Shown piece after piece: positions 1 through 30,407 of a stretch of 33,916 nt of DNA. The translations under genes and the position numbers were made by a program. The notes beneath the pieces were generated by a model. That model was not told the DNA's origin, did no database searches, and saw only the letters and a list, made by a program, of their open reading frames with translations. Numbering within the stretch: the first letter of the stretch is position 1; the number at the start of each line of letters is the position of its first letter. The DNA comes from Ectocarpus siliculosus (Eukaryota > Sar > Phaeophyceae > Ectocarpales > Ectocarpaceae). The stretch covers positions 1-33,916 of the forward strand of contig FN648831.1 in the NCBI GenBank assembly GCA_000310025.1, in the 5' to 3' direction.

Positions 1-1265
1 AACCCTAACAGGGATTCTATCCTCAACCCTGTTTTCAATCTCCAACCCTGTTTTCAGTGACACCTGACAAAATAGGGGCCCTAAGCCAAGACATACACAG
101 TGAAAACAGGGATTCAATCCTCAACCCTGTTTTCAATCTTCAACCCTGTTTTCAATCTTCAAGCCTGTTTTCTGTGACACGAGACAAAATAGGGGCCCTA
201 AGCCAAGACATACACCGTGAAAACTGGGATTCAATCCTCAACGCTGTTTTCAATCTCCAACCCTGTTTTCTGTGTTACGAGACAGAAAGGGGGCCCTAAC
301 CCAATCTGAGATCCTGTTATCCATCTCCAATCCCGTTTTCTGTGGCACGTGACAAAAAGGGAGCCCTAAGCCAAGACATACACCGTGGAAACAGCGATTC
401 AATCTGAGATCCTGTTTTGAATCTCCAACCCTGTTTTCTGTGACACGTGACAAAAAGGTGGCCCTAAGCCAAAGCATACATCGTGAAAACAGCGTTTCAA
501 TCTGAGATCCTGTTTTCAATCTCCAACCCTGTTTTCGGTGACATGTGACAAAAAGGGGGCCCTAAGCCAAGACATACACCGTGGAAACAGTGGTTCAATC
601 TGAGATCCTGGTCTGAATCTCCAACCCTGTTTTCTGTGTCACGTGACAAAAGGGCGCCCCAAGCCAAGGCATACACCGTGAAAACAGCGTTTCAATCTGA
701 GATCTCGTTTTGAATCTCCAACCCTGTTTTCTGTGACACGTGACAAAAAGGGGGCCCTAAGCCAAGGCATTCACCGTGAAAACAGTGTTCCATTCTGAGA
801 TCCTGTTTTCAATCTCCAACCCTGTTTTCTGTGACACGTGACAAAATGGGGGCCCTAACCCTAACCCTAACCCTAACCCACCGTGAAAACAGCGTGAAAA
901 CAGCGTTTCAATCTGAGATCCTGTTTTGAATGTCCAACCCTGTTTTCTGTGACACGTGACAATATGGGGGCCCTAAGCCAAGGCATACACCGTGCAAACA
1001 GCGTTTCAATCAGAGATCCTGTTTTGAATCTCCAACCCTGTTTTCTGTGACACGTGACAAAAAGGGGGCCCTAAGCCAAAGCATACATCGTGAAAACAGC
1101 GTTTCTATCTGAGATCCTTTTTTGAGTCTCCAACCCTGTTTTCTGTGACACGTGACAAAATGGGGGCCCCTAAGCCAAGACATACACCGTGAAAACAGTG
1201 TTTCAATCTGAGATCCTGTCTTGAATCCCCAACCCTGTTTTCTGTGACACGTGACAAAATGGGGG
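1..1265. repeat. Subtelomeric ~98-bp tandem repeat array
   Basis: About 13 units of a ~98-bp repeat. The core GACAAAA recurs at about 351, 449, 547, 645, 742, 840, 958, 1056, 1153 and 1252, so the spacing is 97-99 bp except for one 118-bp step. Each unit carries a CACGTG palindrome just before GACAAAA, then GGGGGCCCTAAGCC, then a CACCGTGAAAACAG block. The CCCTAA in every unit looks like a degenerate telomere motif. The leftmost units (1-300) are more diverged. This fits a telomere-associated repeat at a left chromosome end. Short open frames in the array are not genes. Confidence 0.95.
853..880. repeat. Embedded telomere repeats (CCCTAA)4
   Basis: Four perfect CCCTAA copies followed by CCCA interrupt the 98-bp array and account for the single 118-bp step. 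The orientation is that expected at a left-hand telomere (G-rich strand running outward as TTAGGG). The following CGTGAAAACAG is also duplicated. This suggests a former chromosome terminus, or a telomere-repeat insertion, that was later buried. Confidence 0.9.
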
Positions 1266-1282
1266 CCCTAACACTAACCCTG

Positions 1283-4462: not shown

Positions 4463-5391
4463 TTACTCGTGGCCTTCCACCTTTTCCTTTTCGTCGAGAA
4501 GGGGAAAGTGGACGCCCAGAGCGCTGGACACGCGGTAGTCCTCAATGGTGCCACGGAAAGCTTCGAACCCTGCCATAACCTCGTTTCCATTCTCGTCGTA
4601 CATCGGGCGGGCCGTTTCACCGAGGAGTCCGGACAAGGCCGGGTTCTCAACGTCCAGCCCGTCCACCAACACGTCCATCTGCCAAAAGTCGAGGTCAGGG
4701 AGAACGCGTCCATCCCAGTCTAGCTCCCCGTCGCCCTGGTAGTTGACGCCAGCATCGAGGCGCACCGTAAGAGTAGGCGACTCAATTTTGAAGATGGCGT
4801 GGGTAGATTGCATGTCGGCGAGGTCGTTCTCGGCGATGTACTTGGCGCACCAGCGGGGTGCCGGCATGTGATTGGACTTTAGGATCCAGTCTTCGAAGCT
4901 TTCGCTGTTGTCTAGCCGGCGCCTACCCTCTAGCATCTCCTGGTACATGCGGCCCCATATCTTGTGACCGCCGAATTTCCGGCACTCCACCGGAAGGTTA
5001 GTTGCAGACACTGAGATGGCGCCGTCTCCAACTGACACCTGCCTGGAGAATTGCAGAAGCCCGTTTGCTTCCTGGTCGTCGACAAATATACGCAGTCCGC
5101 CGTTCGCAAGGCAGGGCGAGACGCCCTCAGGACAGCCGTCCGTGTCGGTGGTGTAAGGGTTTTGGACCTCGATCACCAGAGAGTGGCCCTTCGACATAAC
5201 GGCCAGGCTTGTAACCAATTGGCGGTCGGGGAACTCGTCGGGCAGAGGAGCGGTGACGCGAACGTTGATATCGAAATCGGTGACATCGTCCTTGATCAGG
5301 GAGTACCAGCCGCCGTCCACCCCGGACCAGTTGATCCTCTGGCCACGAAGACCTTGCATGTGGGGATCTCCTTCGACCCCCCCGCCCCCCT
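4463..5391 (-). CDS. Terminal exon of a GDPH/SGVDGGW (VWD-like, root-cap-like) protein gene
   Basis: A 309-codon exon ends at TAA. The frame is open upstream of the first ATG (5359) and reads GGGGVEGDPHM, then GLRGQ, then INWSGVDGGWY. It stops upstream at 5402-5404. A CAG acceptor at 5394-5392 would start the exon in phase 1. GDPH with a following W-SGVDGGW is the opening signature of VWD-like extracellular domains, which I recall from stramenopile proteins. Near the C-terminus (about residues 240-285 from the ATG), SGLLGETARP and the following segment resemble plant root-cap/LEA-type domains. There is no membrane segment and only four cysteines. I infer a secreted or cell-surface protein. 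The signal-peptide exon should lie at higher coordinates, but I could not find it in 5400-6500. The gene may therefore be 5'-incomplete or have a long first intron. The coding assignment is strong and the exact function is unknown. Confidence 0.8.
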
Positions 5392-11242: not shown

Positions 11243-11611
11243 CTACATGGGCTCTGGGGTTTGCGCGAAACCTGTGTCGCGGTGTGAGCTCGTTTCCCAT
11301 TTTCTCCCGGCACATATCAGGGGACAATCTAGTGCAGTACATCATCTAACGGAGGACGCTGGTGGTAGTTGCCCCACGCACGGTCTTACCTGTACAGCAC
11401 TTCGTTTCATCGCAGATGCCGCCGCAGTCTTCGTCATCGCCAACGTAGATAGGAATCGGTACCAAGCATTCTCCATCCCAATGAAAGCATAACTCTGCAG
11501 GACAGGACAAGTCGCCAGGACGGACGACGGAACAACCACCCGTCCAAGCAAGCATTTGGGGACAGATACGATAGCAACTTGCGTCACACCGTCGGGTTAC
11601 AGGCCATTCGT
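11243..11611 (-). CDS. Small cysteine-rich secreted-type protein A, two 3' exons (5' end not found)
   Basis: Exon 11611-11390 is 222 nt, opens after a GCTGTAG acceptor in phase 1 and closes at ACAG|GTAAGA, an excellent donor, again in phase 1. It encodes 74 residues with 11 cysteines, including RRCDASCYRIC, LSCPAELC and DEDCGGICDETKCC. After a 118-nt intron, a CACAG acceptor opens a 29-nt last exon ending TPEPM and TAG at 11243. The YVGDDEDCGGICDE stretch resembles the cysteine module of the two downstream paralogues (DC..GCDCED), but the protein is longer and more cysteine-rich. I found no signal-peptide exon between 11640 and 12960, so the gene may be a 5'-truncated relic or its first exon is unrecognised. 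I infer a disulphide-rich extracellular peptide. The function is unknown. Confidence 0.55.
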
Positions 11612-13080
11612 CTACAGCGTTTAGTTTCACACCGGGAGTCCACCCTCACGTGCCGCGCTCCCGACCCCCACGAACGCTGTAGGAAGCGCAGGTCAGGCGG
11701 TGGTGGCGGTGGGCACATTAGGTTGTATTTCCTTTCTCATGGCATATTTTTTTAACTTCATGGAACTCTCCCTAGAAATATGGTCATCACCACATGGTCG
11801 CACTCAACTCCCAGTCGTATCCGCGCGGGTATTGCGCTGGCAAGACTGATGTTGCCATGGTTTTCGGTTGTAACACTCCAACTCACTCTGCGTTTTATGA
11901 ATGGTCGTCGCGTCGTGACGCATTACTTGTGTTTCAGTATGGAAATCCAAAGAGGCAAACATTTGGTTTTGGGTACAGCCAAGTACAGCAGTGTGGACCA
12001 GACATCGAACACCCAAGAACGTTTCCTACCGCGACGACCATGACTGCATGAGATACCTGCTGCGACGACGAAGCATGCTTCAATGCGATGCGAAAAACCG
12101 TGTGCACGTCGTGCACCTGTCACATGATGCTGCCGACTAACAGATGCACATATTAATATAGGTGTCGCCATACTTGTGGGCTCCACACGAAGGACCCCTG
12201 GGGAATATCTCCTACATCGCGCACCACTACAAGGAAACCGAAATGTGACGATTGACATGGTAATATTCCTACGTATATTGGTGCGGCCCAGTACGACGTA
12301 GCGTTTGGTTATGTCGTAAACCTTTGTTGTGTGTGTTGGAATATTTGGCACTACCGTAGCTTCAGCATTAGGTAGTCAGTTTGACTAGTTCAAATATTGT
12401 CAATGTCGCTATGTCATGTAGTAGGTAAAATTCCGTATGGTCTGTCATACTCGGAATATGGAGACATGGTTGATGTTCTGTGTTTCATATCCAGAAGTAA
12501 TCTGCATTGCCTAGATTTCCAGAAAAAATATGTCACAGTGCAAGTAGCTCAGACTTGCGTGCTCGGAAATATATATGCATCGGGTAGTTGTCGCAAGTGC
12601 CTCTGACTCACATGTGTGCTACTCCGTTTTCAAGGGGAGCCCGGGCGCCAGGAGAATGTCCGTGTTTGGCGATGGGGGGGGGGGGGGGTTCTACCTCTTC
12701 CTATCGTACGCACATATGGACGCTTCTCGTCAAGGGCAAACAGCTGATCCTGGCTATACAGAGAGTGGAAATGAAATGAAAATTGAAACGGACAGACGCA
12801 GGCGACAATTTCCGAGGCGGGGAACTCTACTTCTGTAGGTTGTTGCGGCCCCCTGTGTTTGATTGATCGTTCTCAATTGTTTTTACCGCGTTGCGCAAGG
12901 CTGTTAAACATAGGAATGCCTGCAAGGGAAATAGGGCCAGCAGGTGTTGGTTCACCAAGGGAATACGTGAGGCATGATCGCGAGGTCCGCACGGTGTGGG
13001 TCAGAACCTAATGCGTTAATGAAAAACAATTGCATATTCAAGGCGATTAAACGGCGCACGCTCCCGCCACTGAATACAAG
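11612..13080. other. Intergenic or upstream region of gene A
   Basis: I searched it for a leader exon matching the 94-nt, phase-1 signal-peptide exons of the paralogues and found none convincing. It includes a run of 15 G (12674-12688) and a weak copy of the dispersed repeat near 12940. Frames of 60-140 codons have no support. Confidence 0.4.
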
Positions 13081-13126
13081 CGCCTGACCAGACCATGAAG
13101 CAATGCACATCATTTGTGACCATCAC

Positions 13127-14084
13127 CTATCCGCGAAGGGTGCTGTTCGGGATGGCGACAACAGCGCATTTGGTTGGGGTTGGGTATGTAGACGTGTCTG
13201 TGACACCGGACACCTATCGCGACGCACAAGATTTTGATCGCCAGAGACTAGGTTAAACTACACCCGATATCCATGGTGTCAATACCGTTGCTCGTTGGTG
13301 ATCATGTTTCACTTTACCTCCACATTTTCCGTCGGCGTTGCACACCAGTTCATCTTCGCAGTCGCACCCATCTCCGGTGAAGCAATCTTCGCCGAGGGAT
13401 TTAGCGCTTTTTTCTAAAGGCACAGAGAAAGGGTCAGAAACGCAGACGAAAGACAAAAAGTGTGGATCAAGAAGACTTCCAGAACCGCCCATCGCAAAAC
13501 AACCGAAGTGAGGCGTCCCAGGCGTGACTGCCCGACAATCGGGAACTTCACATAGGGTCACAACAGACTTCGTCGTCTCGAGAATGGTCAACAATCAAGA
13601 ACTACGTCCAACGAACGATTTCGATGAGACGGAAACCAAACTAAATAGTGTAACTCGTGCCCGTTTGAGCGTACGTTCCAACGTGCGTGCCACCTGCCAG
13701 AAGGAAAACGTTGTTAGCATCATGTTCTCGCCGCAACCGGGCGCTTACACTTGGCCCTCGGGTTTCCCTGTGTCGATGCGTTCTAACCTGTGCATGTTCC
13801 GTTCGCGCAGCACTCTGAAGAGCATTGTGAGTCCTGGGTGCACACTGTACGGTTTCAGACACGAACAAAGCGAGGGCAGACACTGAGGTCGTGGGTTTTG
13901 GATCTTTCTAGGAGTTGAGTGTTGAGTTAGGGTTAGGGTGTGGTGCTAGAAAATGATTGGCACCCTATTTTTTGGAACTAGAAACTTGACCAAAGAATCT
14001 GCGCTTGGAGACTTGATACGTATGTGGCATCAACCAAACCACAGCGACAACAACTGGGAAGAGCGGCAGGCGGTCAAACTTCAT
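13127..14084 (-). CDS. Small secreted cysteine-rich protein B (multi-exon)
   Basis: Exon 1 (14084-13991, 94 nt) starts MKFDRLPLFPVVVAVVWLMP, a clear signal peptide, and ends at G|GTCAAG in phase 1. The cysteine exon (13413-13318, 96 nt) follows a pyrimidine-rich tract and CTTTAG, encodes GEDCFTGDGCDCEDELVCN then ADGKC, and ends GAG|GTAAAG in phase 1. The last exon (13197-13127, 71 nt) follows a CACAG acceptor and ends IPNSTLRG-TAG. Joined, these give 86 residues. An optional 42-nt exon (13527-13486, VTPGTPHFGCFAMG) is also phase 1-1 and keeps the frame, giving 100 residues. Exon lengths and phases match gene C at 18276-19593 exactly, apart from 6 nt in the last exon. I infer a secreted disulphide-stabilised peptide. 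The family is not recognised and the role is unknown. Confidence 0.68.
13927..13938. repeat. Interstitial TTAGGG dimer
   Basis: TTAGGGTTAGGG occurs within intron or flanking sequence of gene B, in the orientation opposite to the terminal CCCTAA repeats. It is short enough to have arisen by chance, but it could mark a repaired break. Confidence 0.6.
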
Positions 14085-15449
14085 CGAAGCATGCCGGACA
14101 CAGTTTAGGTTGAACCACCCAACGTCGTGTGGTGTATCGTGCCGCAAAAAGAAAATCGGTACTATCGGTGCAAGCAACTTGACGTACTGTAGTCCTATTC
14201 CACCTGCCGGTACGGCTGGTACCACCGGATTCGGACGACAGCTATTAGTCCAAATACTAGAGCGGAGAAATTCTACAATAATCTGGAGGTTTCTTCACAA
14301 GAGATTCCGAAATTTGAGACACAGAAGTGGAGAACCAAACCAAATGCCATCACCATAGAAAGTGCGGCTTGGCATGGCTCTCGGAAGCATTTCACATGTC
14401 AAATGCGGCTCGGTGAACTGAGGAGGGGGGTTAGCAAGGGCACGAACGGCCCCTGAAAATACGCGACAGCGGACTAGCTAAACGATAGCACTGCTGTATC
14501 GAACAGGTATTTGTCCTAGGGAAAGATATCAATATCAACGAGCATCGTGCATGGTGTTCGTGTCGGCCATCTACAAGTACATATCTGGGACTTGCAAGAT
14601 ACACCTTCCGTACAAAACTGCACGCCATACGGTTCGACACCATGAATCTCACCATCGGGTCCTGTTGATCGTGGCATCGAGGATAGCACCAAGGATAGCA
14701 CCGAAGAGATACCCGAGAAAAGAAGGCGGGGGCGACTGAGTGGGGCAGGTATTAATGGGAAATATCATGCAATCTGTTTCACGTAAATCCCAAACGAGCG
14801 ACACGGAACGAATATGCCCGTTCAACAACGAGGGTCTCGTCGCCGATCTTTGTCCTAACCCCAAGACGATGTTCACCCCCAGGTGAGTAGTACTACTGTA
14901 CCACAACCAAAACACTCGTGAACTCTACCGTCGCTAGCATTCAGACCATAGTCGCCGACACATTATTTGCATGGGAGTAACCTTGGTGGGCTATCCAGCT
15001 ATGTAGTGCAAGAAGCCGGAGTGCGAAATTTCATACCATACGATATCCCAGCACGCAACAGTCACGCGTCATCTAAACAGCCATCTAAACAGCTCGAAGT
15101 AGTGGAAACATAGTAGCACGCCATCTAAACAGCTCTAAGTAGTGGAAACATGGTAACACGCCCGCGTTCGAAGCTGGTACATTCCATATGGGCTTGCCAA
15201 ACGAAACGAGCACTGGGGGATAAAATATCCCCTGTGCCCTACGAAACGAGTACGGTGGGGGATAAATGCCGTTTGTTGTGCCTTGTACAAGGATACGGAA
15301 CACTCGCCTACTACGTCCTGATACACACTCGTACGCAAACACATTGTGCCCACCAGAACTTAATCGGCAATAGCATGTTCTCGAAATTTTTCCAGTCCGA
15401 GTATGTCGGTGATGATGCGGGCCATGTATACTGGATACAGTACCTATTC
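14085..15449. other. Region upstream of gene B, no supported gene
   Basis: It should hold the promoter of gene B. It contains one copy of the dispersed repeat (14670-14757), a ~41-bp duplication with GCCATCTAAACAGCTC at about 15078 and 15120, and a palindrome GGGGATA-AAA-TATCCCC at 15216-15232. A 188-codon plus-strand frame runs into the repeat and is not called. Confidence 0.4.
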
Positions 15450-16150
15450 CTTTCGTACAACACACGTAGGTGCAGCGAACCAAACGACTCGGTACCATTT
15501 TTCTTACCAGTGGGCGGCGTAGGTGGCTCTGATGATCGCACCATGGGTAGCACCGAGAGGGTAGCACCGAAGGGATACGTCAGGGACGAACGCAGGGCCG
15601 ACAGATTTGGGGCACATACCGACTTAGATATACATAGTTGTCGTTGTTGTTGTCTGTACATAAAAAACCGTTCCGTTCTCTCTGCTCAGTACCTTCTTTT
15701 GTCCGTACTAGTCTAACACTTGACGGGGTCGATTCCCGTGGTCACAGGCTAACTTACCCAAACAAAAAGGTATACGAAAGTAAAATGGACCCGAAGGGTA
15801 CGCAAGCCAATAAAGTATATGGTGCAAGTTGTGTATGGTAATCCCAAGAAAGTGATGCAGCATTTATTTACCCATCGACCGTGTTCGGGGGTCGTCATAC
15901 AGCTCGTCATAAATCTCGTCCGCAGACTGTCAGGAATCATCACGCACAAGACAGCGACCCCATTCAACACCCATGCGCTTTTCGGATGGGGAGCGAGCGA
16001 ACATAGCTCTGTCCAGCGAAGTGCTGACTCCGTAGTGTAGGACGAGGGCGGACACCCAACAAGGCGATAGCCTGCAATCCAACATTCGTACGAACAAGAA
16101 AATCTACCTAAGACCTTCAAGACTATGGAGAAAGTATTAGTGCGGGTCGA
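15450..16150. repeat. Second copy of the 10.56-11.01-kb segment
   Basis: CGTACAACACACG, the TAGCACCGAGAGGGTAGCACC block (15540-15632), GATGCAGCATTT, GACTGTCAGGA and CCTTCAAGACTATGGA occur in the same order as at 10570-11010. With the gene B/C pair this supports a ~5-kb segmental duplication. The 307-codon minus-strand frame at 15749-16672 overlaps this repeat and is treated as fortuitous. Confidence 0.65.
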
Positions 16151-18174
16151 AAGCGACCGTCCACCATAGGTTGATCGCATCTTGCACTCATTGTCAAACA
16201 TGATATCTTGGCTCGATTGGGGGTGCGATGTTCGTTCGCAGTCGTTCGTCGTCAAGGAAAGAACCAAATTAAACACACGGAGAATGTAGCAGAGGAATGT
16301 ATCACAGGCAGGCGCCAGCAAGGAAAGACGGCGCCGTATTCTACCGCACGGACACGCGGCAGGACCGCGAGTGGGTGTAGGGGCCTCTTGGAGACTAACC
16401 TTTTTAAGTGTGGCCATGGATCGGGACGACACAAGGTGTAGTGTTCGGCAAAAATACTCTGTTTCGAACTTTTTCTTGTTTCGGTCTGGTCTTCTATACC
16501 CTTGCCACTTATTGTACCTGTAGAACCGCAATCTCAGGTACTCGAAGGACTTCTTTCTCATTTTGGGTTTGACAGAATCCAAAGCTTCAGGGTGCCCAAA
16601 ATGATGGAACCTCTTCGTTGAGGGACAGCCGCAAAGGGAATGATCGCCCCCTCTGTCACAAGAACTCAGCACGTGTTTCGTCCGAAAATGTATGAGGTAC
16701 GTAGAACGAGAATCAAACTATCCACTTGCTGTGTGATCGTTCTGACGCTCCAAGCACTTCACTACGAAATACGCACCTCGCTTGCTGATCAGCGGGGAGA
16801 CTATGGTGGCAGATACTGGATGAGAGACAATATCCACACCCCGATTGAGTCTTGCGTCTACATGTAGAAAGCCTTTTTGCGGTACCAATTGGTGGTAGCC
16901 AGCGATTTATTGTGACCACCTCGCTACAGTAGTTGTCTCTGCGATACGCCCGCTAAGACTCTGTGGACACAAGGCTTGAACAGAATAGTAACACATGCGA
17001 CTCCTCCTCTCGACCGAGGGGGCCCCGCAGTACGCAATACGTTCCGGGTATCCCAATATAAACAGTATGGCAATTCGAGTTGTTTCAATAAACCTCGGTT
17101 CGCTTTGTCTACGCCTTTGTCTACGCCTTAAACACCTCAGCTCCAAAATAAAGCTAATCGGAGGTGACATGTAGCAAACGTCAAGGACTTCCACCTCTAG
17201 ATACTGTAGAGTTGCTGAAGGATGCCCGGGTTTTACAACATCGGTGGTAGAGACAATTAGTAATACAACACATGATACAGTGGAGGATTTCGAAAATTCC
17301 AGTGGATCATTGCCGTAGAAGGTCATCACCTTAGAACGTCTCCCTGGCAATAGCTTTTTAAGACCAAAAACAAACAGGGGCCGGGCGAAGAGGGATTTTA
17401 ACAGCAAAACAAGGGGCCCGCGGCGGGGCTGTTGTTCCGTCGTAACACATGCTATTTTGTCTGCACAATGCACCCTACACAGTTGCTTCCTGCGAGTGAG
17501 ACTACCTGTTTCGTTCACTTCGTTACGGTCGTTGTGTTCTTTCGACAGCAGATTTAGCAAACAGGGGCAGGGCTTCTTTGGCACGATTTCCGACAAACGT
17601 GATCATGCTGTGATTTGGCCAATGAAAGCGAAGCAAGGGCCACCTTCATATGTCTCATATCAAGCTCTTTTAGCGTGTAACGCCTCAACTTTCCGGACTA
17701 CAAGCGCGGAACCAACACCAACTTGGACATGTGGTCCGGCCCGGTCATGAACCCCACTCTTGCGACTGAACTTTGAGATGGTTTTTCTTCGCGGAGGGGT
17801 TACATGGACTTGATGATGACAGCCACCCCGGCAACCCATCACTACCCAGAAAGCCGAGTCGAGGAGTGAATTCCTGTGTTCTGGGTGGACTCGGCAGGAT
17901 TCGGAATACGGCTTTAGTTTTAAGTCGCTGCGTCTGGCACCTGAGGGAGTCGCGGGATTAGCGAACCCAACGTCTAATTTCAACATTCGCTCAAGATGGA
18001 GAAGCGAATCCAAACGTGGGCGCCATACATACCTGTACATCACTTGTCCGATCATCCGATCGGCGGGCTTGTGCCAACAAATACGGTATCACGATGTACG
18101 GCGAACTCGATCACGATGGGAGTATTCTCCCTTGCTGAGAAAGCCACACACCAACAACCTGACGTACGCTCCCA
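16151..18174. other. Gene-poor region downstream of gene C
   Basis: Minus-strand frames of 229 (16907-17596) and 131 codons occur. The first has no ATG at its nominal start and no recognisable domain. A GTCTACGCCTTT duplication lies at about 17107-17128. I looked for a paralogue of the gene A exon here, as the segmental duplication predicts, and did not find one. Confidence 0.35.
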
Positions 18175-18256
18175 CTACTTAGCACAAGCGCATTGCCAAG
18201 CCATGAAGCAAGGCGCTACTTAGCACAAGCGCATTGCCAAGCCATGAAGCAAGGCG
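18175..18256. repeat. 41-bp tandem duplication
   Basis: Two exact or nearly exact copies of a 41-bp unit (18175-18215 and 18216-18256) containing AGCACAAGCGCATTGCC and CCATGAAGCAAGGCGC. It lies just 3' of the stop codon of gene C on the minus strand. The corresponding place in gene B has a single copy, so it is a recent duplication. Confidence 0.88.
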
Positions 18257-18275
18257 CATCTTTCCTAGTCACCTC

Positions 18276-19593
18276 CTATCCGCTAAGGGCAGTGTTGGGG
18301 ATGGTGGTGATAGCGGATTTGCTTGGTCTAGCCGAGGCTACTGCGACCGGCCACAGCAGCGTTGTTCCTTGATGTCATATTTTCACCAACCTTCACATTT
18401 ATGGTCGCTGTTGCACACCAGGTCATCTTCGCAGTCACATCCATCCTCGGTGTAGCAGTCTTGTCCGACCCCAATATAGCTTTTCCCTACAGCGGCACGG
18501 CACGTACGCCAGAACCACAGAGGACAAAATGACGCACGGGATTATGAAGCCTTGCACGACCACCCATCGCAAAACTCTGGAAGGGAATTGACTCAGGCGT
18601 GACTGTCTAACGCTTGGGAACGTCATCGTGGAACAACAGTGATGGTTTTGAACTTCCCAGAGCGTGACGGCCGTATTCAACGTTACGAGAAACTGTAAAT
18701 GAAGCACACTGTTCGACTATGTGGCGAAGAACTATTCTCTGCCGGACAGCCCAAACACTACAATGGTCTACTTGGTTGTGCGTGATTTCCAACGTGCATA
18801 TTATGAGGTAGGGGGCAACATAGCACGCGCCACGTTCTCTCGACGTTCCCTACACATCCGGGTGGATACAGCGAAGAAAGCGTTGGCCGCCGGGTTTCCC
18901 AGTGTCGGCATGTTCTTACAGGTGCAGATGGCAGGTTCTGGATAGGTCGAGCAGCACCGCGAGTGGCAGCCTGTGTCCTGAGTACACGCTGTACGGTTTT
19001 AGAAAGGGAGAAAATGAGGGCAGACACAGGCGGCGGGGTGTGGCAATAGAATACGATGCTGGGCAAAGAGGTGGCCGACCGCGGTGTTGAGAATCGTTCT
19101 ATATTCGAAAGAACGTGACGCGATACGCATGCTATGCCTCAACGGGCGATACAGGGATAAGAACGGAAACAGCGGCACGTTTCGAATTTTCCCTCCGACA
19201 TCTAAACCTTAACTATGTGACAGTCCTGCCTGGTTGTACGTAGTGAATACTGACATAATATGGGCGAGAAAGAGGCAGCTTATTCGGTCAGAGCATGATG
19301 ATTTTTGCACAATGAATGGCGATGATACAACAAACCAACAAAAACGAGAAACGTGCTTTCAGCGAAGCGGTCTTTTCGGTATAAGGCGACGATAGCTTCC
19401 TAGGCTTGCAATAGAAGGGCCAAGAGAGCAATGGACACGTGACAAATTCTCAGACGGAGCCTCGCTCCACTTCCACTTCGTGCTTGGCGACATTCTTACC
19501 GTCCCCAAAGACTTGCCCGAGGGCCCTTTTCGAGGAGACCAGCACGCATAGCACCACCGTCACAAATACTGTAGGTGTCCTTGACAATTGCAT
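18276..19593 (-). CDS. Small secreted cysteine-rich protein C (multi-exon)
   Basis: Exon 1 (19593-19500, 94 nt) encodes MQLSRTPTVFVTVVLCVLVS and then SKRALGQVFGD, a strong signal peptide, and ends GACG|GTAAGA in phase 1. The cysteine exon (18486-18391, 96 nt) follows CGCTGTAG, encodes GQDCYTEDGCDCEDDLVCN then SDHKC, and ends GAAG|GTTGGT in phase 1. The last exon (18340-18276, 65 nt) follows GTCGCAG after a 50-nt intron and ends IPNTALSG-TAG. Joined, these give 84 residues. A 42-nt exon (18602-18561, VTPESIPFQSFAMG) matches the optional exon of gene B. The core DGCDCED-LVCN-D-KC is retained with silent codon changes relative to B, which supports selection on the protein. The first intron is about 1 kb. 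If unspliced, exon 1 alone reads 46 residues to a TGA. The function is unknown; it is probably a secreted disulphide-rich peptide. Confidence 0.7.
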
Positions 19594-19599
19594 CTTGAG

Positions 19600-20812
19600 G
19601 TCCTGCGAGGGTAAAGAATCATCACGTGCAAACGCATGTAGGTCGCATGAAACCCGTGCCTAACGAAGACCGAACGAACTGGTCCAACCATCAAGTACTA
19701 ATGTAGAGTCGTCTTGGATGGCTTCTTGTCGTTTTGCGTTCCGAGAGCTGACAATATCGTGTTAATTTTCACTCTCTCTCATCGTTTCGATGCCTTGGGG
19801 ACGCCCCTGTCCACCGTTTCCAATGCCTGTTTCGTGCGATACCAAAATTGCTCGGTAAGGCTGGACTGCTGTTTCATGTCCGTTTTGAGCTCTCGACGTT
19901 CGTATGCATACATACAGGGTTGGGTGATACCACGCTCAGAACGTTCGGAAGTCCCTAAGCAGGACGAGAGATCGCGCCTTACTCATAACTGCGCTCCGCT
20001 ACTTCGATTCCGCGGCTCTACTCTAGCGGAACACGAGTTTTCGGCGAATTTGTGTAAGTAAACAAAGTATGGAGCGTCTTGAACGTCACAGTTACTGCTA
20101 AACTACAGTTTCTACTTCGGGTTTTTCCAGTATCGACAAAAACGGAAGCCAAGGTGGTGATTGTGATGGACCGGGATTATCGGAAATAACAACGACGACA
20201 AGCACCCGGAGAACTCCGCATGTTCTGCAACACTGCTGCTGGCCTATCGGCTGGCGTAGTGACTGGTGGTGGCCACCCCGACGATGCCACTCACCCGTCA
20301 AGAGGCTGTACGCCCTCTGTTGTGGTTTCTCCTCCTCGTATTATGCAGAAACGATTGTTTTGTACGAAAGCATCACGCATTCGGAGGCAGCTTTAGTCTA
20401 GCTGTCCTAAATATTTGTACCAACGCAGCCGTGCGCCACAAACGTCCTCGTTGTCAGGATTAGGATATGTAGTAACACCGCACCAAAGTCGATAATTTTG
20501 ATGATCGATGGTGGAAGGTTGAGGTTGGCCAAGTCGCATATCCATACCAAGAGCACGAGGCTGGACAAAGGTTTCTGACTGAGAGGTTGCCACATGACGG
20601 GAATTCAAACGTCTTGTACTTTACATGTTGTAGATTCGGACATGGATCGGTAGTCATCACATGCAGGACGCGAGTTTGTTCCGAGGAAAAATATGGTTGG
20701 CTGTGTGTTTCTCAGCAAAAACAAATTACAGATGTCGAACACATGGGCCATATGGTCAGCCAGATTTCCAGTATATCTCCGGAGTAGTACATGTAGAAGA
20801 GTCCACGAACAT
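19600..20812. other. Region upstream of gene C, no supported gene
   Basis: Open frames of up to 115 codons on the plus strand (19714-20061) have no motif or paralogue. A pyrimidine tract with CGCAG six to seven bases before the gene C ATG could be a 5'-UTR splice acceptor. Confidence 0.35.
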
Positions 20813-21181: not shown

Positions 21182-22209
21182 CCTCCCTTCGCATTGACGA
21201 ACTTGCTGAGCAGTTCAATCTTGAGCACGTAACCACATACATTGTTCACTTTTACCCCAGCCCAGTTGGCAACCGTAGACGTTATTGGGTCGAGTTATTG
21301 CTATGTAGGTGAATTTACGTTCGTCTCTGGGCGGAAGAGCCGAACATGTCGAACTCCTTCAGTCCGGATATCGCACTGAAGCGCCCCAACGTGTGGCTAC
21401 GAGGCCTGTCTCGGGATCGGTCTGACGGTGAAATCGACATGCCCTTTCGACGACGCCACCGAGTGATATGTGAACGTACAGGGCGTTGCGGTATCTCCCA
21501 AATTTGTCAATGTTTATCCTGAGGGGTCCTAGAATGCATCATACTCACTCTACTTCGCGGTTGGACAACCACGTGCATCCTGACGAGTCGTGTGATGCAT
21601 GATACTCACACTTCTGTCACGCTCGGATGCCCACCCTTGTGTTACCGGTATGCACCGACGACATGCGCCCCATTCAGGTATCGATCTCCAGGTACATGTC
21701 CCACACCAAACGTGGATGAGATTTGAACCAAGACGTGCGGCCGACAGCGCTCAATACCACTCGACAGCCATGTGGCCATCGGTGAGGCTTGGTGGTGCTT
21801 GCCCTCGATTTCAACTTCGTCGGCCTACCCCAAACGCAAGATGACATCTGTCGAGGGAAACTGCAAGAGATCGGCCACTCCTAACAGGTCGTCTTCCTTC
21901 TTCTTAATCTTCTTCTTCCTATCTTCCTCGCAAACATTCACCGTCATCCATCTCGGTGTGGCCGCCCGTCCCATTGGGTGGCGGGGGGCCAATCCTTAAC
22001 CTTAGTTTATTGTAATGTCTGCACTTTTGACCGCGGGTAAACCGCCAGCTTATTGTTGGTGGTATGGTCTTGTGGCCCCCGGCACTTCGTTCGACCGGCC
22101 AAAGAAAACATGATAAACGTATGTAGAAATCAACACACAAAGACACCAGCGACACGAAACAGACGCTATTTGGTATGCACTCCTGTGGTGTCATTGCACA
22201 TGATGTGTG
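21182..22209. other. Unique spacer, no supported gene
   Basis: It contains a CTTCTTCTTAATCTTCTTC pyrimidine tract near 21895 and a repeated CGTGTGATGCATGATACTC / GAATGCATCATACTCAC pair near 21530-21610. I see no coding or RNA feature that I can support. Confidence 0.35.
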
Positions 22210-22481
22210 TGTGTGGGGGCGAGTTTGACTCATACCAGGGGTTACGTGCATTCTTAACGCCCGAACTGAACACGGTCCACCATCGACGATACGCTGCAGG
22301 ACCATTCTTCTGGCTCCCACCACCGTGACAGACAGCGGCTGTGGACAATCCGCAAGAGGTTGCGATCCTTGACATGAAAGGGAGCCTGGGGGGAGCGAAC
22401 TACTGGGTAGGACTGCACGAGCTAGTGGACATAATCCTTGAGCGTCTTGGAAAGGAAGCCCTGTGGACCAAGCGCACGTGA
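22210..22481 (+). pseudogene. Coding-like remnant with an in-frame TGA
   Basis: One plus frame reads GEFDSYQGLRAFLTPELN, then YAAGPFFWLPPP, meets TGA at 22326-22328, and continues QTAAVDNPQEVAILDMKGSL, then YWVGLHELVDIILERLGKEA to a TGA at 22479. The composition is strongly protein-like on both sides of the first stop. Either the stop is a mutation in a decayed gene, or the second half is an exon entered through CAG at 22329-22331 and left at CAC|GTGAGG. I do not recognise the family. Confidence 0.4.
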
Positions 22482-23354
22482 GGCTTGTACTGCCAGCAGG
22501 TCAACTATGAAGGCGACATTCGCGAAGAGCGAGAGGGCACAGGAGGGTGAAGCATCGGCCCCCGAGCCACCAGTGGGCTGGGGGGGCATACGGTGTGACA
22601 GATATCGAGTAGGTCTACTGCGAGAACGGCCGACGTGTGCTGCGCCGCTATGGTCGATGCTTTCAATAATTTACTACATTCTGTTGTACTGTAGTGCAGT
22701 ACGTAGTTCGGGACCACCTCTCGACCATTTCATTTCGTGGGCAGACTAATATTCTAATCATTCAAGAAACTTCGTGTTCAAAGCATTTGTTGCCCATACA
22801 ACCAAAACGCGCGTCACCATTGGCGTGACCAATCAATCGGTGCGGCAATAGTCGATCCGTCTAATTATTTCGTCCAAGCCATTGACGACGGCAACGATTG
22901 CAACTTGATGAAGCATACTGCTGTTGGAAGGAGGAAAAAGAGGACTACTTACAGTACATAGAGCGATTACTTCGAGTACATAACACCGTACGTAGCCCAC
23001 ATGGTAAGGCCCCGAAAGAAGAGTTAAGTATTTTGTGTGATTAATACAAACAAACAACGTGAGGAGCTCTGGACAAACGCTACGGACATGGGCCTGCGAA
23101 CAAAAATGGAAAAATAGGTAACAAACCCGGCCTCGGACTCGGGGCGGATCAGAGCTGCGCACGCCTGCCCAACACCTACACTATTCCATAGTGAAGAATC
23201 CACAACCATGGGAAGAACCACGTATGTATATAAATAATGTGATAAACACCGCCAATGAGTGCCCTTCAACCGGAACCAGTTTACTCCTAAAGCAATAGGA
23301 TATGTGCTTTGGAAGGGGCCTTTCATTGGACATCGCACCGGCCATCGCACCGGG
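22482..23354. other. Unique spacer, no supported gene
   Basis: The frame starting near 22500 (STMKATFAKSERAQEG) could continue the remnant upstream only through a 22-nt gap, which is too short for an ordinary intron. No further support was found. Confidence 0.35.
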
Positions 23355-23443
23355 GTCGGAGAGATCGCACCAGGGTGCGACACAACACACGAAGAAATTC
23401 ACAATCAAGTAAAATCGATCGCACCCGGTGCCATCTCTCCGAC
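23355..23443. repeat. Inverted repeat / hairpin, ~26-bp arms
   Basis: The left arm 23355-23381 (GTCGGAGAGATCGCACC..) and right arm 23418-23443 (..GGTGCCATCTCTCCGAC) pair with only a few mismatches around a ~36-base loop. Extra CATCGCACCGG copies precede the left arm at about 23331-23354. It could be a decayed MITE or a hairpin RNA. No target-site duplication was identified. Confidence 0.65.
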
Positions 23444-24464
23444 TACTACACATGATGAACATGATCATGTACGGGAGATAGATTGTTTCTCTGCTCAAAC
23501 GCATAGAAAAAATGTTTTCCGGTGGTGGTGTTAGCACATGCAGGTACTTTCCGGTGGTTTTGGGGCACGTACTTTTTTGGTGCGTGATCTCTGTACAACA
23601 AACTAGACGTTGTGCTTGCTGCGGTGTTGTTTCTCGCCGAATACGCCTGTTCGATTTTATGTTCTCCGGCGGTCGCATTACTTGATTTATTTGTTGTGCG
23701 TCTCCGCTCTTCGAACGAATGAGCACAACTTTTCGTACACATCAGATCATTCCTCTCATCTCAAACCTCCACCCGCACACAAGCTTGCCGCACATACTTC
23801 TCATCGCCATACAGCCTACGAGCGTAGGGGCGACCGCCGAGCGGTACGCCGCAAAGCGCCCCTCCATGTAGTAGTATGTCCGGATTTCTGCCTTCTTCGT
23901 CTGCGCCCCGGAAAACTTCGACGAGATTTTGGGACAAAAGCCAACGACTACAATCTTAAGAGGGAACATCGAAAACTCTTACCTCTCCCAGTCGACGATG
24001 ATTGATTACTGTGTCGCTGCTCGAGGCTGGTGCCACTGCTGCTGTCCTACGTGATAGCCTGTCGAGTCAATCAAGCCGCTGTCAAGACGGGCAGGGTGGG
24101 AAGAGAAGTTTTGTTGGGGTTGGGCTGGCTCAGCGCGGGGGGGGAGGTGTGTGTGGAAGGTATGCATGTGTGCTTGTGTTCACACTCGCTCTACCTGCGG
24201 CACGCAATTAATTGCAACAACGCGGGACAACAATTGATCGACAACGACTAGAAGTCAGCTGCTGTAGTGCAGCCGGATGGGTTAACCAATACTACTTGCG
24301 TCGGCAGACCTCCACAAACATGTGATATTGTAACTTTGCAGCTTTTCGGTTTATGACTTGCGTTCATCAGGTGACGAAAAATCATGTCATATTCGACTCT
24401 TGCACGAAAAATAGACCGGCCTCTACCTCGTATGTCGCTCGCAAAGGTGTGGTGTACATTAGTA
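23444..24464. other. Unique spacer, no supported gene
   Basis: Frames of up to 131 codons on the plus strand are basic and low in protein-like features. The only structured motif is a short GGTGGTGTTAGCACATGCAGG / GGTGG direct echo near 23520-23555. Nothing else can be supported. Confidence 0.35.
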
Positions 24465-25165
24465 CTCGGGAGTATCTCTGGAAAAATAAACTGATTCGGG
24501 GTCGGCCAGAGTCGGAATAACACTCTGTCTACCATTTCCGGTTTCCGACCCAATGCGTTCTTCTCCATATCGATCGGCGTGCGAGTTCTCTGAATACTCC
24601 TTTGGTATTAGAAGGTAGAATGGGTGTAGCTTGTGCACATCTAGCATTTCTGGGTGGCGTCTTCTTTGCACACCGAGTTCGAGTTCACACTTCGACCCGA
24701 GGAAGCACAGCAGGTCGGCAGAACTCTCGGATCCTTGGTTGGGTGAATGAAAAATGATAACTAACGAAGACAATACTATTGTGTATTTTTCAACCACTGC
24801 AGTTCAACAAGCTGAGCTCGGGGGTCAGCACACCGGACTGTATTGTAGACGCGTTCCAATATAACACCTATTCATTGCGGAGTATATATATAAATTACGG
24901 AGTAAATAATACATTAAAATAGTGATTCGGGGTCGACTGCAGTCGGAATAATGAGTCCTTTGTTATATTCGTTTCAATCTCCGATTTCCGAATCAATGCG
25001 TTCTCCACGCCGGAATGCGATTTCTCGGGACATTTCCTTGGGTAAATAGATAGGTAGGTATAGTATGTGTAGCTTCGGCACTGCGGGCTAGCTTTTGGGT
25101 GACCTCATATTTGCACACCGGCTTCGCAGCACGCGACCCGAGTTGGACGGCAAGATCTATTTTAA
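24465..25165. repeat. Tandem pair of diverged ~0.3-kb repeats
   Basis: Copy 1 (about 24465-24715) and copy 2 (about 24880-25165) share GGAGTAT, TGATTCGGGGTCG..GTCGGAATAA, CCGA..CAATGCGTTCT, TGTGTAGCTT, TTTGCACACCG and CGACCCGAG in the same order. Indels break the reading frames between copies, so it is treated as noncoding. Confidence 0.7.
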
Positions 25166-25578
25166 GTTACAGTACATGGTAGCATCAATCAAAGCTCGAA
25201 ATCAGTCCAATTCAATTGGAACAAGTCGTCATTGACCAGCTTTCACATTGAACCACCTGCCTCCGGCAAACTTGCCCTGCCGCCTCCTCTAGCACTGCAC
25301 AACAGGGAACATAACACAGTCTCGCAAATCTACTCGGAGCCTTGGTCTTCTTGTTGTAGGGTGACGTTTGGCTGGACCAATCGACCAGACGGACGGGCGA
25401 CTGGCGGGCTATAATACTAGCGGCTGCTCCTGGGTCATGCATGCGAAGATTGCGAAAATGACCCTGTTGTGTGCGGGGTGTCTGCCATCTCTCGGGCATC
25501 TCCACAGCTCCCCAGCGCCAGCAGCGCCAGTGGTGATGCACACCATGCGAGAGCGGGACGCCAAAGCACCGAGGCCCT
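25166..25578. other. Junction spacer before the internal subtelomere-like block
   Basis: Unique sequence with a doubled CCAGCGCCAGCAGCGCCAG near 25513. No gene is supported. It ends abruptly at the first 98-bp unit. Confidence 0.35.
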
Positions 25579-25845
25579 GACCCGACCCTGTTTTTAAACT
25601 CCAACCCTGTTTTCTGTGACACGTGACAAAATGGAGGCCCTAACCCAACACATACACCGTGAAAACAGGGATTCATCCCCAACCCTGTTTTGGATCTCCA
25701 ACCCTGTTTTCTGTGACACGTGACAAAAAGGGGGCCCTAAGCCATGACATACACCGTGAAAACAGTGTTTCAATCTGAGATCCTGTTTTCAATCTCCAAC
25801 CCTGTTTTCTGTGACACGTGACAAAAAGGGGGCCCTAACCCTAAG
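25579..25845. repeat. Internal copy of the 98-bp subtelomeric repeat (about 2.7 units)
   Basis: CCAACCCTGTTTTCTGTGAC, ACGTGACAAAA and GGGGGCCCTAA recur with the ~98-bp spacing seen at 1-1265, in the same orientation. The block closes with CCCTAACCCTAAG and passes directly into the 203/204-bp satellite, as at the left end of the window. Confidence 0.93.
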
Positions 25846-26204
25846 TGTGGGGGAAGCAATGGGCGTGAGGCAGCGGTGCTCAACCGCTTATTTCTCGACC
25901 CCCTCTGCATGAAAAGTGGTTCCGTCTTTTTTGTGGTGCTCGGAGCGCACGTGTGGGTGAGTGTTTGAAAATTCGCAACAAGCAAATTCTTTATAGTGGA
26001 GAAAATTTGTCAATACAAGCCCAAACGGAGGCAGCGAAAAGTTCCAAGTGTGGGGGAAGCAATGGGCGTCAGGCAGCGGTGCTTCAACCGCTTATTTCTC
26101 GAGCCCCTCTGCATGAAAAGTGGTTCCGTCTTTTTTGTCGTGCTTGGAGGGTACGTCTGGGTGAGTGTTTGAAAAATCGCAACAAGCAAATTCTTTATAG
26201 TGGA
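25844..26204. repeat. Internal copy of the 204-bp satellite, interrupted
   Basis: About 1.8 satellite units (CATGAAAAGTGG at 25908 and 26112, period 204). Homology stops inside the unit at TTCTTTATAGTGGA (26204). Satellite sequence resumes at about 31524 with GTCAACACAAGCCC, the next part of the unit after a few missing bases. The 5.3 kb in between is therefore embedded in the satellite. Confidence 0.9.
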
Positions 26205-26208
26205 TGTC

Positions 26209-29200
26209 ATGTCAAAGTGGTATCCCAGCAGACGACGCCCAAGCTTCCGGAACCTGCAAGAGTTCAAGGAGAAGGTGTGCATGAAGCGAACGCTGGATGA
26301 TTCCGGTCAACCAATCGGGGAGGAACTCCACATCCTGACCATGAACCATTTCTTGGCGATCTGCCCATCTGCCGAAGACGGGACGGACGAGGGAAACCAA
26401 CAGGCAAGGTGTCCTGTGCGGTTGGCGATACCAATGTCATAATTCGCTTTGGTTTTACCACTGGTGTATGCACTTTGGCCCCTAAGACTGGTCAGTACCC
26501 TAAACCTATTTGTAGGCTGCAAGCGGACCGTAAGCCCAACGCGGACACATCCAAGTTGTGAAAAATACCGTCCCCGCACCGCGAATGTGTAGCTAATCCA
26601 ATTTAGACCTATTCATGCAGAACTACAGAAAAATCACTTTTAGAACGTACGCGTGTCTTTCTGTGGACGTGGCGCTTCTTTGCAGTCTAAGTCCGAGGAC
26701 CGGCAGGGAGACAAGAGTGCAGGGGGGGGGCAGGAAGAAGGGTCACAGAGCAGCGGACCCGGAAGTGACTCGGAAAACGAGACGAACCGGCCCTCGGGAG
26801 GGGGGAAACCAGGCAGACCCAAGGGTAGCTCAGGCAAAAGCAGGTCCAACCAGACCGAGGTGGGTCCCCAGACTTCATACTTTCTAAGAGTCAACCTGTG
26901 AGGAACTCGTTTGTCATTTCGTCAAAAGTATCCTAACCTTGTTGCCGACGAAAGGGATCTCTTCCAAGGTGAACGTGCCCAGTGTACGAATAGTATTGGA
27001 TACTTAACAAGCAAAGCAAGATTTCAAATCTGGGCTGAGGTCGAGAATCACCGCAATCTAGGGCCCTTCAAAAAGTAAACGTTTTCCTGCCTGATCGCTT
27101 TTCTAGGTGTTAGACGACATCACGTGATTGTAAAGGGGGGCCAGCAGGACCGCACGTGACCACCCAGCCGATTGCAGCCGCACATTGCCTAGGCGCATGC
27201 TGTTTCTAGCAGTCAAGCGATATCGTGCCATTGTCAGCAGAGGTGGCGAACAAAGCAGAGACCGCGAAGGAGGTGTAGGTTAGTTGATACATGTTCACAG
27301 CAGCAGTAGTTGGTGAGTGATAAGTAACAATCAATGTGGCATGCATCCGGCCCGCGGGTTGCGTCCGCATCCAATAATCCAGAAAAGAACATCAATGGGT
27401 TAGCGATAGTCTTGCTTGTGACCACGGCACTATGACACAACGGCTACCAGTTCAATCTCACATCATGAGGACACTGATATGGCACGGATGTCTCTGGGCG
27501 TTCCGCGTCTTGGGTGTTGAGGTGCAGAGATGGATGAGCTTTCGAAGGCGCTTCGAGGCGGCAGCAGAAGCCACACCAGCTGGCGGCAGACTGATGATGC
27601 ACGAAAACATCAACTGCAAAAAATAAAAAACAAGGCTCTACATTCCACCTGCGGTGCCCCTCGAAATTAAAGCGCACTACGTATTTTCACTCGTTGATTG
27701 TCGGTCAGCCGGTTAGCGCGGTCGATGCTAATACCATTCCTCCCGTGGACGCACACGTCTGAAGACAGTCTGAAGACAGTTACATCTATCAGCTGTCGCC
27801 CATTGTAGCTACAATGTCTTCCCTCTCTAACTCAAATCCCAGGAAAGTCAAAGCCCGCCCGAAGGCAGACGTGTATTGACCGTATCGAGGACGCTCGGAT
27901 ATCGCCATGCTAGTAGCTGGCTTGAATTGTTCCAGTATCTCATCTTTAGATGAAGACAGGTAACAACTGAGTAAACCCCGCGACTGCACGGCCGGACTAA
28001 GGAAATCGGCTGTTTTCTGCAAGAATCATGCAATACCCTAAGTCACACAGGAGTGGGTCAATTCACAACTTCATTCCGAACGTGGTGTACGCCCTTCCAG
28101 GGACGTGAGGATGTCAACAATACCCAAGGGATGGCCAAGAAGGGTATGAGAGCATCCCAGGACCGAATACAAAAGAGTTGGCGAGCGGGGAGGAAGGACC
28201 TGCTGTACTTGAAGACAGTGTCAAAAAAGAAGCAGACGATGCCACTGGGAGACTCATACAATCCAAGAGCTCCGCGGCTACTCTCAGAGGACTACAAGTG
28301 GGGAATGGCATCATCTGCTTTGCCGTCCAGCCTGAAGTGGGACGACACAGCGCCAGTAGACATCGACTACGCAAAGTACTGCCTGCTCGTAGAGGACGTA
28401 GGCACGAAGGTGCTTCTGCACCACGATATTCTGAGCCATTTCATGCCTCAAGTGCGTAATCTCAACCTGCCCAAGTACGTCAGTCCACTTTTCCTTACCC
28501 GAGGACCCGGCCTGACGTACGTGGTCATACAGGCGGACGAGGAAGAGGTGGAAAACGGCGAGACAACCGTGGAAGAGGAAGTTGGGAAGGCCCGCGACGA
28601 GTTTCTCGATGCCTTTAACCGCGAAGCACCGGGTGTAGTCCTAAGACGCCCATCTCGACCCGACCTGATTTGCCGCAGTCATCAGAGCGTCAGCGGCATG
28701 CTGTTGCAGCGGGTTCTTCTAGATGTGGGATTCGACGTTGTTTGGCACCTGGAGTGGGGGATGAAATGCCCAGCAGGCGACTTGGCCGGGTTGGACGATG
28801 CCGCCGAGCGAGCGCGTGACAGGGTCAACGCGGACGAAAATCCGACGGAGTCGAATACATTCGATGTGGCAACAACTCTTCCCACGACACAGGTTCCCCT
28901 CGTGACTTGCTGGCCACTCCAAAATCGTGGTGCGGGGGACGACCTGGCTCGTCGAGGAGCGACAAGGATGAGATGCTACGCGCAAGCGCCAGGTCTTTTC
29001 CACCTGCCGTTTGGGTCCACGCAAACGCGCGGAGCGACACCGTGGGAAGGGGAAGGAGTAACAACGCTTACCGTGTACAGCAAGTGGGATCACGTTCTGA
29101 GGGCCTGGGGTAAGTTCACCTGGGCAGTCCCAAATTCACACAAGAAAGCCGGCAGTAACTTGAAGTACTTGCGGGGGATGATCGATCAGCTCGTGACAGA

Positions 29201-30407
29201 AGACGGTATGAGGTTCATCAAAGAGAACGGGCTGGGGCTCAGGCTTGAGGCGCGGGTGCTGGCTGTGACGGCACGCGAAGCGGAAGCGAAAGTGAGGGAT
29301 CTGGGCCTCCTTCATCCTGAAGCAGCGTGGACCGAATTGAGACAGTATCACGATCGTCCGGTGAAGGATCAAACCGGGAGCGGGACTACAACGCAAAAGC
29401 ACCTTCCTCTGTGGCTTCTGCGACCTGAGGTAATCTTGGCGAACGCGATGAGGGTGGTGCAGTCCGGAACCGGCTTGTCGTTCCCAAGAAGCCGCCCGCC
29501 GCCTCTGGCGCTCGTGAAACGGGCAGGGGTGGATGCGATGGCGGCCGTTGGGCGGACCCATAACAGTTGGCGGGCTTATGATGGGCTCAAACAGAAAGAG
29601 CCTTCATGGTGGGTCCACGACCACGAGTTCAAGCGCAACGTGGAAGCAGCAACCCGAAGACGTAATCCTTCGAGGCGCGCAAGAAAGCCCGCAATCGTGG
29701 ACGAACGGAAAGATGACATTGATGGAGACTTGTATGCTGACTGCGGGGAAGACGAAAGCTCAGGGTCTAGGGAAGACCTGTCTGCAGAGGACACACCGTC
29801 TGCCGGTCCAACGGCAGACACGAACGCCAACGGACGGTCGACCGACACGCCCATCATGGCGTCGGACGGGGATAAGCGCGCGGGACGTGAACTTGGTGGT
29901 AACGTCCGTGGCCGTGGAAGAGGTGAAGGTGTTCCAGGAGGACCTCCGAACGACAAAGATGCGCAAGAGTCCGGGGAAGGATCGTTTGAAGGACGTTTTG
30001 CGGGAAGAAAGCCGACTAGTGCGCCACCTGCTCCAGATTTCGTCGGAAGCGACCCTCACGAAGAGAGCCCCCTGCGGGAGTGTGAGTATGACGACGAGGA
30101 CACCGAGCTAGAGTTAGGCGAAGGCCATGATGACTTCGGCTCTGGCGGCGTATACGACGATGACGACGCCGGTGGGGATGATGGGGCCTTCGACTTCGAT
30201 ATCGCTGACGGCACTTTCAATTCGCCTGGAGAGTTCGTTCCCGTCGCTGGACGCGACGATGAGGAGGAGCGGCAGGAGGATGGGCCGGTGGATGAGAGCG
30301 GCGAGGAACCGGAGGAGGAGAAGTCAGGGCAGGAGGAGGAGCAAGTCGATGCCGCTGCCGAGCCTTACTCTCCCAATGACGATGATGGAGAGTGCGTGAT
30401 GGTGTGA
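26209..30407 (+). CDS. Unrecognised ~891-residue protein: basic/AT-hook-like N-terminus, acidic C-terminus (3 exons)
   Basis: Proposed exons are 26209-26403 (65 codons, MSKWYPSRRRPSF..), 26686-26859 (58 codons) and 28101-30407 (768 codons plus TGA). All junctions are phase 0. Intron 1 would use a GC donor (CAG|GCAAGG) with acceptor CTTCTTTGCAG. Intron 2 uses GAG|GTGGGT and CCCTTCCAG. Exon 2 is Ser/Gly-rich with KPGRPKGSSGKSRS, an AT-hook-like motif. In exon 3, roughly the first 500 residues look globular (for example LKWDDTAPVDIDYAKYCLLV and FDVVWHLEWGMKCP). A basic patch (RRRNPSRRARKP) and an RGRGRGE run follow, then about 130 residues rich in Asp and Glu. An ATG at 28131 with good context is an alternative start for exon 3 alone. 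No known domain is recognised. A DNA- or chromatin-associated role is only an inference from the motifs. Confidence 0.6.
26860..28100 (+). other. Proposed intron 2 of the large gene
   Basis: 1.24 kb with no clear coding content. A 64-codon ATG-started frame at 27432-27626 (MTQRLPVQSHIMRTLIWHGC..) could be an extra exon or fortuitous; it has no motif. A TCTGAAGACAG duplication lies near 27758-27780. Confidence 0.35.

Follow-up and report, generated by a model that had tools for sequence, protein, structure and literature searches.

What is encoded by the cluster of tiny cysteine-rich exons in this Ectocarpus siliculosus subtelomere, and how have its copies arisen? The window, i.e. the whole 33,916-nt stretch analysed (FN648831.1, here contig C279), holds between positions 11,243 and 19,593 the candidate genes A, B and C, which a sequence-only reading had described as fast-evolving genes for secreted peptides bearing the mark of exon shuffling. 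We propose, with more confidence than doubt, that C, and probably B, are small secreted-peptide genes, each composed of a leader and a ten-cysteine domain and spread by segmental duplication, and that module A is separate from them. Alignments, exon scans and simulations agree with the outline of the earlier description, namely small, cysteine-rich genes made of phase 1-1 exons with a signal-peptide-like leader in a subtelomere. Gene models for B, C, A and a neighbouring von Willebrand D-like exon were read from the DNA alone, using borders, frames and alignment across copies, and the genome-wide searches cover the 189-Mb assembly, in which the other contigs are labelled C8, C134, etc.

The 96-nt exon of B matches five places in the genome (E up to 10), namely B and C in the window, B' and C' on C134, and one copy on C8, and the five-way alignment of these copies is the basis for the corrected exon models (Table 1). 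Both genes had been assembled from a 94-nt leader exon, a 96-nt cysteine exon and a short terminal exon. The GT/AG borders and phase 1 of the candidate leaders and of the 96-nt exons could be verified, as could the retention of the core DGCDCED-LVCN-D-KC, but an exon of 57 nt (B, B') or 69 nt (C, C', C8), phase 1-1 in all, had been overlooked between them. It follows an acceptor, AACCGTACAG, common to the five copies, and its frame is open in each. Joined in one consistent frame, exons 2 and 3 carry 10 cysteines in 5/5 copies, with the spacing 5-3-0-4/8-11-5-1-5-5, and are read here as the predicted halves of one domain, five cysteines each. The terminal exon of the earlier model, in turn, is poorly conserved. 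Read by eye in the alignment, its acceptor is missing in B' and C8 and kept in C' with a similar tail and a different stop, and the position of the B stop codon reads CAG in B'. The 6-nt difference reported between the last exons of B and C is obtained with acceptor 18340 and becomes 9 nt with 18337, while the optional 42-nt exon could not be located. At exon 3, the donor begins with GTAA in four of the five copies and is GTTGGT in C; read-through tails are GW, GNVKI, GKVKI and GNDKT, each followed by a stop, and a longer one in B.

Evidence that these frames are translated comes from neutral simulation at each pair's own noncoding rate, with 20,000 runs each for B-B', C-C', C-C8 and C'-C8, the C-type runs including the leader exon. 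Across the four pairs, the noncoding parts differ at a rate of 0.216-0.291 and have an indel every 39-52 nt. Runs without a stop make up a fraction of 0.05-0.24, those keeping the cysteines as observed 0.0001-0.002, and those reaching the observed amino-acid identity 0.0001-0.012; all three outcomes coincide in 5e-5 of the runs for B-B' and in 0 of 20,000 for each of the C-type pairs. Within types the exons are indel-free, the probability of which is 0.001-0.02 under the neutral rate. Since raw exon identity is close to intron identity while frame, cysteines and indels depart from neutrality, constraint acts on the protein pattern and is moderate. The ratio of nonsynonymous to synonymous substitution rates (dN/dS) for exons 2 and 3 is 0.27-0.61 by NG86 in ten pairs, and 0.69 and 0.92 by YN00 for two of them, so that the fast evolution proposed earlier is not borne out; for the C-type leader, NG86 gives 0.51, 0.52 and 1.22. 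Hence, B and C have the appearance of real genes kept under selection.

The window is a subtelomere. Its 98-bp satellite agrees in monomer length and in TTAGGG content with the Ectocarpus subtelomeric satellite, which the relevant passage of PMC11541908 describes as about 98 bp long, with TTAGGG motifs, and adjoining telomeric repeats. CCCTAA repeats are also present in the window, and a 203-bp tandem array occupies 31528-33915. Aligned to C134, the window yields five collinear pieces from 13059 to 19683 at 71-75% identity, which cover about two thirds of that interval including introns and intergenic DNA, and a sixth, inverted piece at 19704-20029. As the first 2 kb of C134 match the 98-bp satellite of the window, C134 is also regarded as a subtelomere, and the five B/C-type copies sit at three loci, two of them (window and C134) subtelomeric. 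Because similarity runs on through introns and flanks, B and C are segmental gene duplicates rather than products of exon shuffling, and B/C exons moving independently of their introns were looked for in these alignments and not seen. As judged by alignment, the duplicated unit is a chromosome segment.

The leaders of the two genes differ in origin. That of C aligns without indels in C, C' and C8, with donors GTAAGA, GTAAGA and GTGAGA, respectively, and is the only hydrophobic ATG exon in a scan of 19001-19900. The Kyte-Doolittle 9-residue maximum, a hydropathy measure rather than a dedicated signal-peptide prediction, is 3.38 for the C leader and 3.09 for that of B. The latter is the only hydrophobic ATG exon candidate in 13885-18300 when the donor list is widened to admit GTCAAG. 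It had been set aside as spurious, its start codon not being kept in B', until an alternative in-frame start was found there, and it is now rated possible. In B' the same frame is open and hydrophobic, with the start lying 21 nt farther upstream and GTCAAG again as donor, giving a leader that would measure 115 nt; one other, weaker candidate is present. The B and B' leaders differ at 10 of 88 positions without indel, and the P value of their identity is about 0.008 at the background rate and 0.11 given just ten changes. A further C-type leader copy, the sixth, lies at G000:C229:50666-50743, about 540 bp from the contig end, and has lost start codon and donor.

The DNA of the B leader aligns to intron 1 of C' and C8, with scores of 44-56 against shuffle maxima of 34-38, and weakly to intron 1 of C, with 36-40 against 34 (200 shuffles each). 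The two leaders are therefore different exons at different places, and their shared 94-nt length looks like a coincidence. In disagreement with the earlier view that the leader has diverged almost completely, the B leader is, by these alignments, not homologous to that of C and sits in sequence homologous to C-type intron 1. A C-type leader was sought in the 4.4 kb upstream of B by six alignments, none of which scored above the best of 20 shuffles. We tentatively raise the possibility of a leader swap, in which B would have kept the ten-cysteine domain and gained a new signal-peptide exon in what is intron DNA in its paralogues, the C-type leader being gone. If true, a secretion signal would have been changed through the birth of an exon within an intron, in a subtelomeric duplicate.

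Table 1. Features of the window, ordered by position.
Feature	Position	Strand	Description
98-bp satellite	302..1271	none	CCCTAA motifs; places the cluster in the subtelomere
D-like terminal exon of neighbouring gene	4463..5391	-	GDPH motif, phase 1 start, ends in stop
Module A exon, preferred reading	11390..11494	-	105 nt, phase 1-1, six cysteines
Gene B, terminal exon of the sequence-only reading	13127..13197	-	71 nt; acceptor and stop not conserved in B'
Gene B, exon 3	13318..13413	-	96 nt, cysteines 6-10, donor GTAAAG
Gene B, exon 2 (overlooked earlier)	13788..13844	-	57 nt, phase 1-1, cysteines 1-5
Gene B, candidate leader exon	13991..14084	-	94 nt, hydrophobic, donor GTCAAG, homologous to C-type intron 1
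Gene C, terminal exon of the sequence-only reading	18276..18340	-	62 or 65 nt; doubtful, C' alone has a matching acceptor
Gene C, exon 3	18391..18486	-	96 nt, cysteines 6-10; weak donor GTTGGT, read-through tail GW then stop
Gene C, exon 2 (overlooked earlier)	18920..18988	-	69 nt, phase 1-1, cysteines 1-5
Gene C, exon 1	19500..19593	-	94 nt, start codon, signal-peptide-like leader, ends in phase 1

Module A had been read as a gene with an eleven-cysteine, phase 1-1 exon. That frame exists (222 nt, 11611-11390), but a shorter exon of 105 nt with six cysteines fits the other copies better. Borders were compared in 25 copies; in 20, an AG acceptor is present and the exon as far as the donor is a multiple of three in length (105-153 nt, phase 1-1), with the acceptor at the same site in 19 of the 20 (TCCTGCAG or close); 16 of these hold six cysteines and four hold seven. 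Of the other five copies, no AG was found at this place in four, and one is without an intact end. The frame leading into the acceptor holds stops directly adjacent to it in two copies and further up in two more, and the 5' phase of the longer exon is 1 in the window and 0 at the nearest upstream site, GTGTCAG or GGTTTAG, in C32, C66, C117 and C142. This comparison of borders, phase and stops across copies is why the 105-nt exon is preferred and the 222-nt exon was set aside. For the longer reading, structure prediction gave a predicted local distance difference test score (pLDDT) of 37 and no usable model.

A query with the A exon of C66 finds 31 places in the genome (E up to 1). A exons precede the D-like exon, recognised by its GDPH motif, at C32 and C66. 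Among the 22 best GDPH matches, nine are preceded on the same strand by an A match at a distance of no more than 10 kb, in one case just 557 bp, and 15 of the 31 A matches are in this position; a further three A copies, all on C93, instead follow a GDPH exon. The A exons of C93 form a tandem series with a period of about 858 bp and near-identical copies, one of ten matches being frameshifted. Clusters of single-exon, A-type cysteine modules are seen at G000:C93:108994-123096, C56:3035-13161 and C344:3929-14019, and are possibly variable in copy number. From this arrangement, module A is best read as one exon within a different modular family, whose genes end with a von Willebrand D-like exon, rather than as a gene of its own, and the family is probably one of matrix or adhesive proteins. 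Exon shuffling, which fails for the segmentally duplicated B and C, fits the repeated symmetric exons of module A much better.

For the GDPH exon itself, a genome-wide search yields 84 matching stretches, some belonging to one and the same gene, and the family occurs both at contig ends and in contig interiors. Its acceptor allows phase 1 in 12 of 13 copies examined, some with other choices as well, and phase 0 only in a divergent copy on C33; close copies end alike (GHE or similar) and divergent ones otherwise. An AlphaFold2 model from 15 sequences reached a predicted template modelling score of 0.74 and a mean pLDDT of 66.7. The best Foldseek matches of the model are D assemblies of FCGBP and mucins at E 0.007-0.03, none being at 0.001 or better. 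In VIA-align 2, D-domain matches have Z 8.3-11.2 over 129-144 residues, led by MUC5AC (Z 11.2, root-mean-square deviation 2.7, 142 residues aligned), VWF (10.7) and FCGBP (10.5); further rows are Cypridina luciferase (9.1), an insect pigment protein (8.6) and RGMB (7.2-7.9), and the next row falls to 3.9. The exon is thus modelled as a von Willebrand D-like fold. We call it D-like and do not file it as a member of the D-domain family because Pfam does not recognise it, no family matching at E up to 1; NCBIfam is likewise without a match. Its alignment found no homologue in viral contigs or in bacterial and archaeal genome contigs, and a search of ten loci revealed no leader exon common to the D-like genes.

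Further features lie on the other side of the cluster. Stretches of 21672-25576 are 89-93% identical to C93 and C134, compared with 71-75% for the B/C segment, and would represent either a younger duplication or a mobile element. At 25581-26300, far from both contig ends, an internal island of 97/98-bp satellite is followed by the 203-bp-type repeat, which suggests past exchange between chromosome ends. An uninterrupted plus-strand frame of 810 codons with an acidic C-terminal part extends over 27975-30407 and has no Pfam match at E up to 1.

Several observations weigh against the view that C and B are small genes in their own right. At two of three loci, a D-like exon follows them on the same strand, and every junction could be in phase 1. 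The B leader depends on two copies that have a weak donor and differing starts. The YN00 ratios indicate weaker constraint, the leader ratio of 1.22 belongs to the C'-C8 pair, and, with exons about as similar as introns in nucleotides, the case relies on frame, cysteines and indels. Finally, no conserved next exon was found behind the GTAA donor kept by most copies of exon 3, and the read-through tails differ. Alternatively, the locus may encode one long secreted modular protein comprising the C leader, the ten-cysteine domains of C and B, module A and the D-like domain, with a single stop at 4463. All these parts are on the minus strand and in this order, with phase 1 possible at every junction; the order recurs on C134, the alike ends of close D-like copies, the kept GTAA and the poorly conserved terminal exons of B and C would fit, and so would the lack of a D-like leader among the loci searched. 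Nevertheless, we consider a single long gene unlikely. None of the 84 D-like stretches is near the copy on C8, so a C-type gene can exist by itself; B has a candidate leader of its own, open also in B'; the gaps would have to be introns of 1.8-6 kb; and C134 is absent from the 31 places matched by module A.

It is also conceivable that B and C are decaying subtelomeric copies and that expression is confined to some members of the family at other places. The terminal exon and the start codons are variable among copies, the C229 leader copy has lost start and donor, and one A copy on C93 is frameshifted, but the ten cysteines and open frames retained in all five copies, along with the neutral simulations, make general decay improbable. 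The first model as written, with a leader, one cysteine exon, a short terminal exon and the optional 42-nt exon, has existing frames and GT/AG borders in its favour, and C' can be read with a similar tail. However, it leaves out an exon whose borders and five cysteines are conserved, places five cysteines after the leader in C and six in B, has an odd number of cysteines in the core, and requires a terminal acceptor that is missing in B' and C8; we regard it as very improbable. We return to C, and probably B, as small secreted-peptide genes, for which the following path can be envisaged. The leader would send the peptide into the secretory pathway, and its ten cysteines would pair into five disulfides to give a compact domain some 50-54 residues long. 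Its site of action would be extracellular, either within the wall or on adjacent cells or microbes; it would serve there as a ligand or a defence peptide, and may have a role in defence, signalling or adhesion. The copies spread by segmental duplication, and B has a different candidate leader, in DNA that is intronic in C.

To our knowledge, few secreted signalling or defence peptides are known from brown algae. B and C represent a small, testable family with corrected gene models, real, modest and unnamed, and nothing here overturns known biology. The second, more widespread modular family of A and D-like exons, with its tandem exon arrays, deserves a study of its own; both these arrays and the leader swap are testable and unusual. 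In agreement with the sequence-only reading, which did not recognise the B/C family, the ten-cysteine domain of exons 2 and 3 matches no family in Pfam, NCBIfam or the Protein Data Bank (PDB), a PDB search with the five-sequence profile found no match, and the alignment has no homologue in viral contigs. At E up to 10, Pfam returned matches at chance level only, which were discarded: Amnionless (E 0.13) for the C model of the earlier reading, and TIL (E 7) and DUF5885 (E 2.7) for the B and B' modules. Literature searches over titles and abstract openings found no paper on the B, C or A genes.

The closest parallel in cysteine pattern is the Dickkopf CRD2, which PMC6425005 presents as a domain of the colipase fold, akin to prokineticins and with ten conserved cysteines. 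The ten cysteines of these animal domains come in the same order, with cysteines 3 and 4 adjacent and a C-x-C formed by 7 and 8; relative to human DKK1, the C-type agrees in five of nine spacings and the B-type in four (permutation P 0.0008 and 0.012, respectively, uncorrected for having picked the Dickkopf family). Unlike in DKK1, two of the loops are far shorter (both 5, against 16 and 17), no CRD1 domain is seen, the hhalign probability of profile similarity is 0.5%, and no Dickkopf-type Pfam or PDB match was found. By analogy, the peptide may work like a Dickkopf-type small disulfide-locked extracellular ligand, membership in the family being unsupported by profiles. The EsV-1-7 or IMMEDIATE UPRIGHT family is likewise cysteine-rich, expanded in brown algae according to the portion of PMC7457493 concerned, and abundant in this genome, as befits a brown alga (at least 150 motif matches over the cut-off, with 150 of 880 candidates scored), but the proteins scanned here have no match to its PF19114 in Pfam at E up to 10. 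The D-like exon resembles the von Willebrand factor D domain of mucins, VWF and FCGBP in its GDPH motif and modelled fold. It differs by a long mid-stretch without counterpart in the aligned chains, and by module A standing in place of the C8/TIL/E modules that we take to accompany D domains. Lastly, the brown-algal LRR-ROCO genes, as outlined in the section available of PMC11378527, are exon-shuffled and built of one-exon modules of 72 bp in phase 2. Module A shares with them the repeated modules of one exon each and the symmetric phase, whereas its exons are phase 1-1 and presumably extracellular, and B and C are whole-gene duplicates. As turnover of exon modules is known in brown algae for candidate immune receptors, again as far as that section goes (PMC11378527), the arrays of A and D-like exons would extend it to likely extracellular proteins.

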